From Amphirosellinia nigrospora (taxonomy: Eukaryota; Ascomycota; Sordariomycetes; Xylariales; Xylariaceae): a stretch of 64,000 nucleotides of DNA. Shown here in pieces: positions 26,741 to 54,152 of this stretch. The notes below the pieces were generated by a model. It had not been told where the DNA came from and ran no database searches. It saw nothing but the letters and a program-made list of their open reading frames with translations. The translations under genes were made by a program, and so were the position numbers. The first letter of the stretch is position 1. Each line of letters begins with the position of its first letter. The stretch covers positions 558,001 to 622,000 of the forward strand of contig SCHM01000001.1 in the NCBI GenBank assembly GCA_004123355.1. The letters run 5' to 3'.

Positions 26741-27796
26741 ATGTCGCTTCGGAGACTTTGGGCCCAGGCTCCCTACACCCCGAGGACAGTAATGCCACGG
26801 AGGTGTTTAACAGTTGGTCCATCCCAGCCCTCTCACGCAAGGGCACAAATTCCGTATAGAGATGCAAATTTACGGCCCGGGCCACGGAAATATTGGAAGC
26901 ACCAGCAGTCATCTAAGACTTACTCCAACTATACGCCCAAAACCCATCACAGCACACACTACCCATATGGCCAGCCGCCCAAGTCACCCATGAGTCGGTT
27001 GAAAGATATGGCTATCGGATCAGTCTTGACCATTCTTGTGACCGTTGGCTACTATTACAACGTCACCCCAATGTCAAAAAAAGCCCAACGCCGTCTCATC
27101 GCCCTACAATGCGAAGACCTATTGATGCAAGCTGAGCACAACGATGACGGCAGCCCGGAGTGCAGAGAATATCCGTCGCCTCTTCGAAGAGCGTACGATG
27201 AAGATGTACTTTTGGGTCCAATGAACTGTAAAAAATGTCAGCGAATCCCAAATCAAAACTTTGGGGCGGCTGCCTCGATTTCCGGAGGGCAAGTTAGTAT
27301 TTCTGAGTTTTATTCCTTGACTTGGCAAAACCTTTTCTTTGATCTACCATACCTATGCTCATCAACACCCCGAAACGTTCTGGTAATGGGTCAACGGTTT
27401 TTTTTTTTTTTTTTTGGCTGTAAACGGCAATAGTTTACAGCGAACGCCATGGTTCCGAAACGATCGAAGAGGGTGACACCCTAGTTCTTTTGTCGCCAGA
27501 AACTAGATCCCATGACATAGCAGTTTCTGTCAACGACTACGAGGTGAATGTTTTTGCTGGCCATCAAAGCGATACTTTGGGGGCCTCTCCCAAGATGCAA
27601 GAGATTGCTCGTCGCTTAGAGGTTATAGTGAGAGGCTTATATAAGGAAGGCGCGATCGATCCCAACAAACAGATTTATCTAGTAAGGGTTCTCGGACTTA
27701 TTTTATTCTTGTTTCATAACGTCTCAGAGCAACGATCCAAAATGGGTTAAGATGATGTCTCTAGAGACTTCTGGAATTTCCCAAGTCACCCTCTAG
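26741..27796 (+). CDS. Predicted mitochondrial single-pass membrane protein, unknown family
   Basis: I do not recognise this family. The 285-residue model has an Arg-rich, acid-poor N-terminus (MSLRRLWAQAPYTPRTVMPR) like a mitochondrial presequence. One hydrophobic segment follows at about residues 88-108 (MAIGSVLTILVTVGYYYNV). Next are an acidic region, a short Cys pair (CKKC) and a mixed C-terminal domain with DIAVSVNDYEVNVFAG and MQEIARRLEVIVRGLYKEGA, ending SGISQVTL. Exons: 26741-27288, 27441-27681 and 27728-27796. Intron 1 contains an 18-base T run. It is best read with a GC donor (GCAAGT at 27289) and TTTACAG acceptor; a GT donor three bases downstream (27292) leaves the wrong phase. 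The gene is probably real, from its open frames and splice logic. Confidence 0.6.
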
Positions 27797-28436
27797 ATTA
27801 TGATAACTGATTCGAGTCTTGCAGTTTATCATCTTGCGAGATGTCATGTACATTTTTGAATGGCGATACCAGCTAAGAGAAGTGTCTATAAGCACCTAAC
27901 AAGTGAAAGAGTATTCTTGATTTCTTTGGCAATGTTGACCATATGAAATTTAGCCATATGTGCATACGACAACTGATTTATGTTATTGGAATACTTTAGG
28001 TAAGTTTTTTTCTGTAATAAAAGTCATGCCTTATATATTTAGGACGCTAACTGAGTAACCCTAAACCTGGAATGTTCGGATATCTGAAGGTAAACGACAA
28101 ATAGACAGGTACAACCCGAGCGATACATCGTAGAAATACATTTCGCTTAGTTCAAGATGCAACAAATGGTCGCGTGAGGATTAACTATACCTATTTTATT
28201 CGAACTTGGAAGTACTTGTTGGATACGATGCGGGAAGGTTCGACGTCATGGAAGTTCTAGACCACGAGCTTAGTGGGTCGCAATTCAGGAACCAGCAGCC
28301 CACCCGCGCACTAATCTTGACGCGGCTCTAAACTAAACTCGATCAAGTAAGGAGATGATTAGCTCAAGGTTACAGGGCCAAGCGAATCCTTATCCAGCAC
28401 TGACAGGGCGTTGACGTCCGGGCCTCTGTTAAGGTT
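27797..28436. other. Intergenic region
   Basis: A 640-bp AT-rich spacer upstream of NTH1 with nothing recognised. Confidence 0.45.
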
Positions 28437-44971: not shown

Positions 44972-46055
44972 ATGGCACGCATTTCTCAGCTGTCTTCTAA
45001 TTCTTCTGCCGCTATTGAGGCTGGGCGACGGTTCCAACTTCCACCGGGAACAGAGAAGAGAACGCAAGGCTCGACGCTTTTCAGCACCACGGCAAAAGAA
45101 TTGGTCTCAAGCATACCCTTCCGATGGCGGGCGGATCAAGTCAAGATTTTTGAAGACTGGGTCCTTTATAAAGGGCCAAACGGTGAGTAATTCTATGTTC
45201 GGACCTATTTTCTTCTTAATCAGGAGGCTTTTAGAGCGCAAGTTCTTCCTTGTAGGCCAAGACGGTGCGCAAAAGCTTCTAAACCCCGTACGAATCACGC
45301 TGGAGATGGCAATAACTAAACATAAGTGTTTTAGTCATGTCGGCCGATCTCCTGCCGCTGCTGAGAGCGTTGGATCTTGATGGATACGAAGACGTCAAGA
45401 ACTATCGCGGGGAATGCGTTCATGACCTGATCATTGTGAAAGTGCGTAGAAAGCTCACGCGCACCAAGAATACGGAAATGGCGACGGAGGTCGACAGCAC
45501 TTATGATGCATCACGATCGAAGAGCACACAGCTTGAAGATACATCAAGTGTAGTGTCGTCGCCACGTTCCAGCGCCTATGGAAAGATAAGTCAGCCGGCG
45601 TATACTCAAAGCACCACCTCGCCTATTAAGCACGAGCAAGAGGATGACTCTGAGTTTCTCAACCAGACCCATGTGGCGCCTGGGGGCTATCGTTACAAAA
45701 TCAAACCGAATTCCGATGCAGCTCCCACTTCGGTACAAACACCTCGGCTATCGAGCTATCAGGAGTCCTTGCTTTCGAGAGCGTCGGAAAAGGAGAATGC
45801 TACTACCACGCCTCGTTCCTCTCCTTCATCCGGTATATTTTGCGCTCGCGGGCCTTTGATAATAGAAACACGCGAGACAAAGAACAACTCCAGGCTGGCA
45901 TGGATAAGCTGAAGGCTGCGATGAAAGAGCTTTCTTTCTTAGTTTACCAGCTGCCGGCTGATAAGCCAACTTCTATTTTGGATACTGCAACTCATGACAC
46001 TGAGCTCGAGATTGACTATCTGGGGGAATTGGTAAAAGAGTATGTTCGCGATTGA
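44972..46055 (+). CDS. Orphan protein, three exons, one or two frame breaks
   Basis: I do not recognise it. Proposed exons: 44972-45182 (MARISQLSSNSSAAIEAGRR to ...YKGPNG), 45256-45287 (32 nt, QDGAQKLLNP) and 45335-46055. The third exon begins MSADLLPLLRALDLDGYEDV, followed by a Ser/Thr/Gln-rich middle and a helical, charged C-terminus KDKLKAAMKELSFLVYQL-like ending ELVKEYVRD. A frame change at about 45836 fits one lost base. The junction into exon 3 is also one base out of phase, so a second break or another acceptor is needed. It sits between two gene-poor AT-rich stretches, a setting typical of young or mobile-element-associated fungal genes. No transposase, integrase or nuclease motif is visible. 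Confidence 0.5.
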
Positions 46056-49763: not shown

Positions 49764-52700
49764 ATGGCTCAGGCTCAGTCTCAGGCTCAGGCTCAGTCTC
49801 GGGCTGGATTACCAGACCCGACTGCGGATCTGCAATGGTCAAATTTTGTAGGCGCAATTCACGACATTTTTGGCCAACAGGCCGAGGCACACCCGGACCG
49901 CGTGTGTGTCGTCGAGACGGCCTCGTCAACGACGCCTGAACGTCGCTTCACCTATCGCGAGGTCTACGAGGCCACCAACACCCTCGCACACTACCTACAT
50001 GATTCCGGCGTCACCAACGGCGATGTGGTCATGATTTGGGCCCATAGATCTGTCGACCTCGTCGTCAGCTTAATGGGCACTCTGGTACTTCTCCCTCCTT
50101 GCCCGTTTCTGTGCTTTATATAGACATAATGCTCATCATGCTCTACCTGCCAGGCCGCCGGCGCTACTATGACTGTCCTGGATCCTGCTTATCCCCGGCA
50201 CGCCAGCAGATCTACCTCGAAGTATCCCAACCCCGCGCTTTGATCAGGATAGGGAGGGCCACCGATGAGAACGGCCCTTTGGCCCCCCTGGTCCAGAAGT
50301 ATATCGACGAACAATTGCAACTAAAGGCTGAAGTGCCTGAGCTCCGTCTCCATGACGGTGGTTTGCTCTCGGGTAGCAGCGGCCACGACATCTTCGAAAA
50401 AGCCAGGCAGTCGGCTACTGTCCCGCCTCCTGTAGTCGTTGGTCCTGATTCTAATCCCACACTATCCTTCACATCAGGTGCGTATGAAAACCTCTCGTAC
50501 CTGATCTATCAATTTCCTTGTTTTGTATAATCTCGCAGATGCCCTGAATGTGGAGTTTGGTAATGTTGGTTAACATATTTCTATCCACGTAGGGAGCGAG
50601 GGCCGACCCAAGGGAGTTCTCGGCCGCCACTATAGTTTGACGCGGTACTTCCCTTGGATGGCCAAGCGCTTCAACCTCTCTGCAGACAGCAGATTTACCA
50701 TGCTCAGCGGTTTGGCCCATGACCCAATACAGCGCGATGTGTTTACGCCGCTCTTCATGGGCGCCCAGGTAAGTCGTTTGAGTGTTCTATTCCCCTTTTG
50801 ACATGCCTCAAACGTAAATTACCTTAATGCGCTGCTCCCGCAACTGCTACAAGCTCCCGAACCGCTGGGAAATTATTGTTGTGAGTGGGAAAGGTTGACT
50901 CCAGTGTTATATGTAGTTGCTCGTCCCCGCCAAAGAGGACATCCAACACGAGAAACTTGCCGAGTGGTTCCGCGAACATAAACCTACTGTCACTCACTTG
51001 ACACCCGCGTAAGTACTCCTCGTAACAAATTACTTCTTGTTTTTAGAGAACGAAGTTTCCTGTCTAGGATGAAGAGAGTGTCTAGAAGGTTCTGAAACAC
51101 ACAAATCGGCATTAAATAGTAATTACTGACTTCGAGTGTTGTAGAATGGGGCAAATTTTAGTCGGCGGCGCCACTGCCGAATTCCCGAGCCTTGAGCAGG
51201 TCTTCTTTGTTGGTGACGTCCTGACAACGAGAGACTGTCGATCTCTCAGACGCTTAGCAATCAATGCCACTATCCAGAATATGTTTGGCTCAACAGAGGT
51301 TAGTTACTTGAGGGCTTTGTTTCCCTCTTGCCATGTCTAAAAGGGGTAACTCTCACCATAAGTGAATATTGCTAACTCCGTATTATAAATAGACCCAGAG
51401 AGCAGTCAGCTACTACGAAGTTCCTAGTAGAGCCAATGATCCCGACTTCCTAGATAAGCTCAAGAAGGATACCATCCCGGCAGGCCGGGGCATGGAGAAT
51501 GTTCAACTTTTGATTCTCAACACAGAAGACCATACCAAACTATGTGGTATCGGCGAAACAGGAGAGATTTGGGTCCGGGCCGCGGGGCTCGCCGAAAGTG
51601 CGTACCCTCGCAGCTATTTTCTTCCTGTTTCGGCAACTTTCAGAGCATGATATATCCTTTTTGGGGTGTGATATCTTCTTGAAGCTTCTGACACCCTCAC
51701 TATTCACACTATAATCAGCAATAGCTAACTCCTAGGGTTGTAGTGTATCTCGGGGATTCGGCTCTTAATGAGAAAAAGTTCGTGCCGAATTGCTTCGTTG
51801 ATAACCAGAAGTGGGTCGAACAGGACAGGAAAGATGCCAACGACGAACCTTGGAGACGCTACTATAAGGGCCCACGCGATCGAAGTGCGTAATCCTCGCA
51901 GCTATTTTTCTTTCTGCTTTGGTACCTTTCAGAGCACGATGTTTCCTTCTTGGGACGTGAAAATGTCTCGAAGCTTCTGACACGCTCACAATTCACGCTC
52001 TAAATAGCAATAACTGACTCCGAGTGTTGTAGTGTATCGAACCGGCGACCTTGGTAGATACTTGGAGTCGGGAGACGTCGATGTAATTGGGCGTGCTGAC
52101 GACTCACAAATCAAGATCCGGGGTTTCAGAATCGAGCTAAATGAAATTGATAGCAACTTGAGCCAGCACCCCCTTATTCGCGACTGCAAAACGCTTGTCC
52201 GGCGGAATCGTGACGAAGAACAAACCCTGGTGAGCTACATCGTTCCCGAAGCAGCAGAATGGCGGCGTAGAGCCATGGAAGACATCGAAGACGAGGGCAT
52301 CAAAATGGGTCCGGTAACAGTCTTCCAGAAGAAGTATCGAATGATGCAAAAGGAAGTACGAGAACATTTGAAGTCGCGCTTACCGGCATATGCTGTTCCA
52401 ACCATATACCTAGTATTGGACAAGCTTCCTCTTAACCCTAATGGCAAGGTGGATAAACCTAACCTTCCTTTCCCTGATGTCGCTGAGCGTGTCGAAGAGG
52501 CCTCTGAGGAAGACATGAAGAACTGGGAATCACTTACTGAGATGCAGCGTACTGTGGCCCAGAAGTGGGCTGACCTTGTTCGTGGTCTAAATCCCAAATC
52601 CATCCGGCCAGAGGATAGCTTCTTCGATCTCGGCGGGCATAGTCTTTTGGCGCAGCAGCTACTCTTAAACTTCAGAAAGGAGCTGCAAGCTGACCTGACG

Positions 52701-54152
52701 ATCAACAATCTGTATAGTTCAGCGACCCTAGCTGGATTCACTGCTGAGGTAGAGAAGCAGCTGAAAAAGGCTAGCGGAGTCCCTACTGAGGAGAGCGAAG
52801 AAGGCGATCCGGTTTATGCGCAGTCTCTCGACGCATTATTAGCTAAATTGCCTACGAAGTATCATACTGCGGACTTGCAGTCACTGAATAGCTCAGGGCA
52901 GCTCACCGTTTTCCTCACTGGAGCAACGGGTTTCCTGGGCTCGTATCTTGTGAAGGACATACTTGAGCGCACACGACGCGAGATCAAGCTTATCGCTCAT
53001 GTTCGAGCTGTCAAGGACGCCGCCACAGGACTGGACAGACTCAAAACGCGCTCTTGGAGCTTATGGGCTATGGAAAGACGATTGGTTGCCTAGGCTAAGC
53101 TGTGTAATTGGCGATCTTTCACAACCCAACTTAGGCATGAACGAGTCAGATTGGCAGAGAGTGGTAAATGAAGCTGATGTGGTCATCCACAATGGCGCGA
53201 CAGTTCACTGGGTGAAGACATACCAGGACATGATGGCATCAAACGTCCTTTCTACACTAGATGCCATGGCGTTGTGTAATGAAGGGAAGCCTAAAATCTT
53301 CAGTTATGTGAGCTCTACAAGTGTCCTCGATAATGACCATTATATCAAGCTATCGTCGGAACGGGTCGGAACGGGCAAGGCGCGATCTACGAGAGCGATG
53401 ACATGGACGGTAGTCGACGCGGCTTGGGGACTGGATACGGCCAGACCAAATGGGTGTCGGAAAAACTCGTACGCGAGGCTGGAAACCGCGGTCTGATAGG
53501 ATCTGTGATACGCCCAGGTTACATCTTGGGTGACATACTGACGGGAGTCTGCAACACGGACGACTTCTTGATACGCATGTTGAAAGGTTGTGTGCAGCTA
53601 AAAGCAAGGCCTCGAATCGTTAACACGGTGAACGCCGTTGGCGTCAACCACGTTGCGCGCGTAGTTGTCGCATCAGCTCTAAATCCCATTCCTCACGGTG
53701 TACATGTCGTCCACGTTACCGCCCATCCGCGATTCGCAATGAACGAATACCTGTCCATCATGGAATACTATGGCTATAAAGCACCTGAAGTCAGCTACGA
53801 CGACTGGAAGCTTGAACTGGAAAAGTTCGTCTCGGCTGGTACCTTGGAGAAGGATCAAGAACAGCATGCCCTCATGCCGTTATTCCATTTTTGCATGAAT
53901 GATCTTCCGGCGAACACGCGCGCGCCATTCCTCGACGACCGCAACGCGGTAGCGGTGCTCAAGGCGGACGCAGAGAATTGGACAGGGCTAGACGAGAGCT
54001 TCGGCCATGGAATCGGCAGAGACGAGGTCGGACGATACCTTGGGTATCTCGCGAAAATCGGATTTATTGCTCTACCGTCTGAGAAGGGAAGGCCGTTGCC
54101 TGAGATACTCGTAGATGCGCAAGCTGTGGGTGGACGTGGCGGGGTCGCGTAG
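49764..54152 (+). CDS. LYS2: L-2-aminoadipate reductase (LYS2), three frame breaks
   Basis: An NRPS-like enzyme of fungal lysine biosynthesis that adenylates alpha-aminoadipate, loads it on a carrier domain and reduces it with NADPH. Start ATG 49764 gives a Gln/Ala repeat then [13 protein letters not shown]. Exons: 49764-50084, 50154-50477, 50593-50768, 50917-51008, 51145-51298, 51393-51597, 51744-51884 and 52033-54152. Adenylation motifs: [33 protein letters not shown], then [13 protein letters not shown]. Carrier: [15 protein letters not shown], Ser being the phosphopantetheine site. Reductase: [20 protein letters not shown], and YGQTKW with the Tyr/Lys pair. About 1,177 residues. Breaks at about 50190 and 53378 fit one missing base; one at about 53043 fits an extra A. 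Introns 3-7 are mutually similar (see separate entries). Confidence 0.97.
51009..51144 (+). repeat. LYS2 intron 4, member of intron family
   Basis: A 136-nt GT-AG intron. Its 3' end TGACTTCGAGTGTTGTAG differs from that of intron 7 by one base over 18, and 29 of the last 32 bases agree. An internal TTAGAGAACGAAGTTTCCT matches the corresponding part of intron 7 with few differences. Confidence 0.8.
51598..51743 (+). repeat. LYS2 intron 6, member of intron family
   Basis: A 146-nt intron starting GTGCGTA. It aligns with intron 7 along its full length, by eye at roughly 75-80% identity, sharing CTCGCAGCTATTTT, CTTTCAGAGCA, GAAGCTTCTGACAC and the GTTGTAG acceptor. The exon bases next to it (CGAA before, TGTAT after) are also shared with intron 7. 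Confidence 0.85.
51885..52032 (+). repeat. LYS2 intron 7, member of intron family
   Basis: A 148-nt intron starting GTGCGTA and ending TGACTCCGAGTGTTGTAG. It is the best match to both intron 6 (whole length) and intron 4 (3' half and an internal block). It lies 141 bp downstream of intron 6. Confidence 0.85.

Follow-up and report, generated by a model that had tools for sequence, protein, structure and literature searches.

The LYS2 gene in the stretch of Amphirosellinia nigrospora DNA analysed here (64,000 nucleotides of contig SCHM01000001.1, hereafter the window) raises the question of why several introns of a single gene resemble one another. An earlier note on this DNA had proposed that the gene was colonized by one family of introner-like elements, or that its introns were copied or converted from each other. 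Such elements are established in fungi (van der Burgt 2012 via PMC8469720 and PMC3443670; Collemare 2015, PMC4457414), and the bulk origin of new spliceosomal introns is unsettled. In the 2022 survey PMC9860276 the ascomycete introners are described as outliers that lack target duplications and terminal repeats, which has made their mechanism hard to test so far. Xylaria is not named in the main text of that survey.

We refined the edges of the seven LYS2 introns, all on the plus strand, to 50085-50153 (intron 1, 69 nt), 50478-50592 (intron 2, 115 nt, canonical GT..AG), 50769-50916 (intron 3, 148 nt), 51009-51144 (intron 4, 136 nt), 51299-51392 (intron 5, 94 nt), 51598-51743 (intron 6, 146 nt) and 51885-52032 (intron 7, 148 nt). 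Once the introns are removed the reading frame is continuous from exon 3 to about 53040 and the spliced product aligns with homologs, a Xylaria castorea protein being the top match of the C-terminal part (80% identity). The frame is broken at about 50190 (within 50150-50220) and then near 53040 and 53370 (within 53030-53400). Single-base errors of the long-read assembly are one likely cause, and a broken gene is also conceivable. An Rfam search of positions 50700-52100 gave no match.

All 21 pairs of LYS2 introns were compared, using 300 dinucleotide shuffles per pair with the splice ends held fixed. Introns 4, 6 and 7 are related beyond chance. Introns 6 and 7 do align over their full length, as had been claimed, sharing 119 of 146 aligned bases (z 60), and the claimed kinship of intron 4 with intron 7 was borne out too (z 28; z 6 between introns 4 and 6). 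None of these three scores was reached by any of the 300 shuffles, which places them well above random sequence. The similarity proposed for introns 3 and 5 was recovered weakly (z 4, 2 of 300 shuffles) and lies mainly in the first ~47 nt of each intron. Introns 5 and 7 as well as 3 and 7 were weaker still (6 and 7 of 300 shuffles), and for the other 15 pairs the observed score was reached by at least 23 of 300 shuffles. The similarity of intron 1 to the other six introns stayed within the shuffle range, and no family was found for it.

At least five of the seven LYS2 introns turned out to be repeated introns, drawn from three families which we term A (introns 4, 6 and 7), B (intron 2) and C (intron 3). 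The idea of colonization by one family therefore has to be given up, and the membership of intron 2 in a repeated family had been missed. We regard families A, B and C as introner-like elements of a Xylariales fungus with near certainty. None of the three was found described in the open-licence papers that we searched.

Family A is the largest of the three. It consists of canonical U2-type introns of about 146 nt, with a GTGCGT donor, a CTGAC or CTAAC branch site and a TTGTAG acceptor, which multiply through the genome. We searched 48.1 Mb in 11 contigs. When intron 7 was used as DNA query, 40 of 132 genome candidates were scored, itself included, most of them full length and the 39 others 77-89% identical; intron 6 gave 40 scored of 43 candidates and intron 4 gave seven matches, each counting itself. 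A 21-mer from the 3' end of the family, allowing up to 3 mismatches, matched the genome 251 times compared to once for the reversed pattern, the number 251 being a count of recognizable 3' ends and not a census of the family. Adding exon bases left 225 matches against none in the control, and a 29-mer from the 5' end gave 29 against none. In 53 of 61 aligned copies GT and AG lie exactly at the padded edges of the family. Searches with introns 4, 6 and 7, by profile and by DNA query, thus located family members elsewhere in the genome, and with its many 3' ends and splice-site-exact edges the family bears out the introner-like nature that had been suspected for these three introns.

Within the window the family A profile detects five copies. 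Three are the LYS2 introns, namely 4 (diverged, E 1.8e-21), 6 and 7 (E 9.5e-49 for intron 7, which was part of the profile). The other two lie outside LYS2 on the plus strand, one at 45183..45334 (E 1.7e-21, GT..AG at the profile edges) and a diverged one at 27689..27826 (E 1.5e-13, 5' edge uncertain). No copy was found by the profile in 80 kb taken from five contigs as 16 stretches of 5 kb chosen without regard to matches, so the window is richer in family A than average. Two of these 16 stretches are extremely AT-rich (L072 with 10.6% GC and L067 with 25.5% GC). A viral-contig scan for the 3' end of the family gave no match.

We read 74 copies of family A, which are those closest to the query introns or near them and not a census. 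For the tests 60 were kept; the other 14 scored low, matched only in part or lacked GT/AG at the edge of the profile. Median identity among the 60 is 74% pairwise and 85% to the consensus, and since even the closest pair is only 95% identical, the copies read are not brand new. The family A copies are spread over 56 distinct loci, each fetched with about 3.1 kb of sequence; 11 of the 56 hold at least two copies, always on the same strand.

Family A copies sit in sense orientation in coding exons, and their removal neither adds nor loses exon bases. When 60 nt of flanking exon is taken at either end, the reading frame is open in 54 of 60 copies after splicing and in none of the 60 when the intron is retained, compared to 39 of 60 for the antisense strand and likewise 39 of 60 for splicing with one extra base. 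According to the longest open frame, phase 1 applies to 32 of 53 copies, phase 2 to 11 and phase 0 to 10. From the 50 spliced peptides outside LYS2 we submitted 30 to Pfam. Matches were obtained for 18 at E<=1e-3 (14 of which reach Pfam's own cut-off) and for 21 at 0.01, the match spanning the splice junction in 17 of the 18, while the antisense peptides of the nine copies without a sense match gave none (0/9). Judged by these frames, family A is probably removed as one canonical intron, restoring both the frame and the Pfam domains. The insertion carries no target-site duplication: the 3-mers flanking the intron are equal in 2 of 60 copies and the 4-mers in none. We infer that the introns were gained at empty sites.

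The flanking exon bases are far from random. Family A prefers YA|TS sites, above all a T just downstream: 52 of the 60 copies have T as the first base 3' of the intron, compared to seven with A, one with C and none with G. On the 5' side the adjoining base is A in 57% and G in 22%; one position further upstream it is a pyrimidine (C or T) in 75%, and the second downstream position is occupied by G or C in 79%. The most frequent junction is A|T (33/60, all other pairs together 27/60). As a control we took 66 introns that open frames predict in this genome and removed from them seven family copies (six A, one B); in the remaining 59, an automatic set in which false introns may persist, the first downstream base is T in 11 (13 of 66 before removal) and the preceding base is G in 28. 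The difference in downstream T between family A and control is highly significant (Fisher p 2e-14). All six dropped copies with an AG edge are also followed by T. Among the first 100 listed of the 225 genome pattern matches 99 end in NAG, and the 66 further family A matches among those 100 are followed by T in 43 cases, C in 10, A in 9 and G in 4, so that the bias is lower in these yet clear.

A T that was present before insertion is supported by homologous proteins at six of nine T-bearing junctions tested. At the junction of LYS2 intron 7 the homologs carry Leu (96), Met (19) or Ile (4), i.e. codons with T at that position in all 119 that have a letter there. The solved-structure homologs listed show Ile or Val, again T-carrying codons, in 5/5 at the L043 junction, Ile in the one homolog shown for L047, Ile or Val in four of five for L014 (Tyr in the fifth), Trp in 3/3 for L053, all variants of one protein, and Ile in 5/5 for L044, all copies of one protein. 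The three junctions without support are those of L050 and L056, for which the homologs are distant, and that of LYS2 intron 6, a clear exception where the T is not ancestral: 106 of 118 homologs have Gly and the protein here has Met. LYS2 intron 4 is followed by A, so its junction is uninformative on a prior T.

These exceptions also bear on two other explanations of the data. The T and A flanking family A could be needed for splicing or be brought in by the element, instead of reflecting a choice of target. The replacement of Gly by Met at intron 6 would fit a T carried in by the element, as would the distant homologs of L050 and L056, which lack the T. The homolog codons at the six other junctions have a T in place already, and the ordinary introns, only 11 of 59 of which are followed by T, argue against a splicing need. 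Flanks and intron relatedness are weakly correlated (permutation p 0.04-0.16 for two bases on each side, 0.68 further out), and inheritance of the flanks along with the copy was rejected on this basis. We therefore consider a T that is required or brought along unlikely. The intron 6 junction matters as well for the proposal that the LYS2 introns were copied or converted within the gene, by local duplication or gene conversion and with no genome-wide element involved. Among the 60 family A copies the nearest relative of intron 6 is indeed intron 7, and the six exon bases TGTATC directly follow both introns (51744-51749 and 52033-52038); together with the Met codon they are possibly the scar of copying between the two sites. 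Against such an origin stand the hundreds of family A end matches elsewhere in the genome and the fact that intron 7 is nearer to copies elsewhere (up to 89% identity) than to intron 6 (80%). Moreover, 11 of the 13 same-locus pairs contain no copy whose nearest relative is its partner, introns 6 and 7 and one pair in L030 being the exceptions. As same-locus partners are this rarely nearest relatives, loci must have been hit more than once independently. Local duplication is thereby refuted as the general source of family A, and we regard copying within the gene as a highly improbable account of LYS2. Returning to a choice of target by the element, we tentatively suggest that fungal introners can select sites by sequence without target duplication: family A might integrate flush at pre-existing YA^TS sites of the coding strand, where a dedicated or co-opted activity would cut or join. 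If so, the integration enzyme or the reverse reaction of the spliceosome should be recognizable by its preference for A^T.

Family B was found through a search for a repeat element published for Xylariaceae (PMC12403724), which yielded 183 matches compared to 84 in the control. The 5' end of the family resembles 5'-NTIRE-10 (GUAUAAAAAC) as given in PMC12403724, a likeness that is partly due to selection since the family was found via that element. A profile of six copies, built with intron 2 left out, matches LYS2 intron 2 from end to end (E 6e-10), and one B copy used as query hit 19 other places, two of the entries being one copy. The intron is preceded by G in 15 of 16 aligned copies; when those chosen for their G are set aside, the count is 10 of 11. 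The downstream base is T in 9 of the 16, that of the L055 copy being unreliable due to a shifted 3' edge. For eight B copies we compared the frame with and without this G: it is open with the G kept in seven and with the G removed in three (four with the G kept only, three either way and one in neither case). We therefore read B copies as canonical introns and not as two-step stwintrons. One locus, L082:129-400, is perhaps a true two-step stwintron, with a B-like 5' end ahead of another, similar donor (GGTATGTATAAAGA).

Members of different families also occur side by side. On the minus strand at G000 C4:3684435-3684689 (L095 and L089) a complete B copy begins immediately where a complete A copy ends, not one exon base separating them; apparently one introner inserted exactly at the end of the other. 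At L055:1808-1923 a B copy shares its locus with an A copy, so the proximity of two families is not unique to LYS2.

For family C two near-full-length relatives of intron 3 were obtained with this intron alone as query, at L016:2038-2196 (E 3e-10) and L025:623-777 (E 6e-9), and the reversed control over the fetched loci gave no match. The seeded genome search with intron 3 returned only itself, the relatives having come from profile searches over the fetched loci. Both begin with GTAAGT after an A, one being followed by T and the other by C. Both are near family A copies, but so are nearly all fetched loci. Intron 5 could be a decayed copy of family C, given the resemblance of its beginning to intron 3 and an E value of 0.012 against a C profile built without it. 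The C profile also matches weakly the 3' halves of A copies in L050 and L055 (E 0.014 and 0.034), and families A and C may share an ancestor.

We also assessed whether the ends of the introns can pair. In the family A consensus CTCGGAGY lies immediately inward of the donor, and ACTCCGAG overlaps with the branch region. Pairing of the two ends amounts to -18.1 kcal/mol in a consensus of 38 copies, a value that 5 of 2000 shuffles attained in one run and 1 in another, and to -14.4 kcal/mol in wider consensuses of 53 and 60 copies, with 64 of 2000 as good; for the family B consensus it was 50 of 2000. A near-terminal inverted repeat is thus suggested in both families. In single A copies the ends pair slightly better than in control introns (-10.0 vs -8.6, p 0.016), a control that still held some family copies. 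Pairing declines with distance from the consensus (rho 0.62), as expected from neutral decay. Covariation of the repeat was considered and rejected, as the pairing of a copy's own ends equals that across copies, which is decay without compensation. The near-terminal stem appears in the minimum-energy fold of all nine near-consensus copies chosen and is complete in none of the three LYS2 copies. Whole introns were not more stable overall than shuffles (12 copies, z -2.05 to +1.87). A conserved RNA fold, which had been suggested as a point of comparison, was not found in family A and was rejected.

Taken together, we consider it probable that LYS2 was repeatedly struck by introner-like elements of families A, B and C. 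Their spread may have been RNA-based. What moves would then be the excised intron RNA, whose ends the near-terminal repeat perhaps keeps together. This RNA would enter transcribed DNA or transcripts in sense orientation, either reverse-spliced at an R-loop or captured at a break, and the machinery or the local break chemistry would favor NA^T. An RNA-based, transcription-linked route has been favored for fungal introners by earlier authors as reported in PMC8469720 and PMC3443670, and here it fits the seamless insertion, the sense orientation and the repeated hits at the same loci. The preference for YA|TS is not a prediction of reverse splicing at ordinary exon junctions. Because the near-terminal repeat proved weaker on checking, we hold the RNA route less firmly and put it somewhat short of an even chance.

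Two DNA-based routes have to be weighed against it. Helitrons are rolling-circle DNA elements whose insertion, between A and T, leaves no target duplication. Spread of family A in this manner would account for A|T as the commonest junction and for the lack of duplication, and a 3' end of ...TAG with a T behind it is reminiscent of Helitrons. At the 5' end, however, family A has GT and not TC, the consensus fold has no 3' hairpin, and most sampled copies lie sense in coding frames whereas DNA transposition predicts intergenic copies, so a Helitron-like spread appears improbable to us. Alternatively, family A could be a non-autonomous DNA transposon carrying both splice signals, comparable to the algal introners with terminal inverted repeats (TIRs) and target-site duplication (Huff 2016, via PMC9860276 and PMC12403724). 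Repeated introns are common ground, and some of the algal families have TIRs according to these sources. The inverted repeats near the ends of the A and B consensus, whose significance varies with the consensus used, and the sequence preference at the insertion site would suit a transposon. Family A differs from the algal elements described there in that it shows neither target-site duplication nor a co-opted splice site, both splice sites being inside the element, and the restoration of frames on splicing leaves no room for duplicated exon bases. All multi-copy loci (11 of 56) carry their copies on one strand, which also speaks against a transposon, although selection against unspliceable antisense copies would give the same picture. 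A transposon origin is thus about as improbable as the Helitron-like one, and RNA-based insertion is the reading that we follow.

The fungal introners with which families A, B and C are best compared are of a known kind. As described in PMC8469720, PMC3443670 and PMC4457414, the introner-like elements of Dothideomycetes are many similar canonical introns, longer than ordinary ones, seamless and in genic sense orientation, sometimes two per gene, which decay into ordinary introns. All this resembles the families found here; the lineage is another, and the likeness is one of description. A clear difference is the target: according to PMC8469720 on van der Burgt et al., the Dothideomycete elements favor AG/GY sites, whereas family A favors YA|TS and has no downstream G in 60 copies. 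The stable whole-intron fold described for them was not clearly seen in the 12 copies of family A either.

Closer in lineage are the sister stwintrons and cropped sister introns of Hypoxylaceae and Xylariaceae (PMC8469720, PMC12403724), which belong to the same fungal order. By these accounts they share with our families seamless insertion and the absence of target duplication; they also have near-terminal inverted repeats by both splice sites, which are suggested in A and B. Unlike them, A, B and C are read as single canonical introns. The hallmark of a [D1,2] stwintron, an internal intron splitting the donor after its first G, is not seen in family A, where the preceding G (22%) is not fixed. 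Published Xylariales stwintrons are described in PMC12403724 as without exon bias, in contrast to the strong bias of family A and the G preceding family B.

What is new is therefore the target preference of family A, which differs from that of published fungal families, the assignment of introns 2 and 3 to a second and a third family, and the abutting A and B copies. With at least five of seven introns from three repeated families, LYS2 illustrates that the ordinary-looking structure of a housekeeping gene can largely be built from introners. With its strong insertion motif and hundreds of end matches, family A offers a testable handle, as any proposed machinery must prefer NA^T, and the T preference of this largest family is a clue to the birth of new introns. 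A fourth repeated stretch of about 120 bases was noticed at L021:2698-2821, L050:170-289 and L030:2424-2508. It is not clearly an intron and is possibly a small transposon or another intron family.
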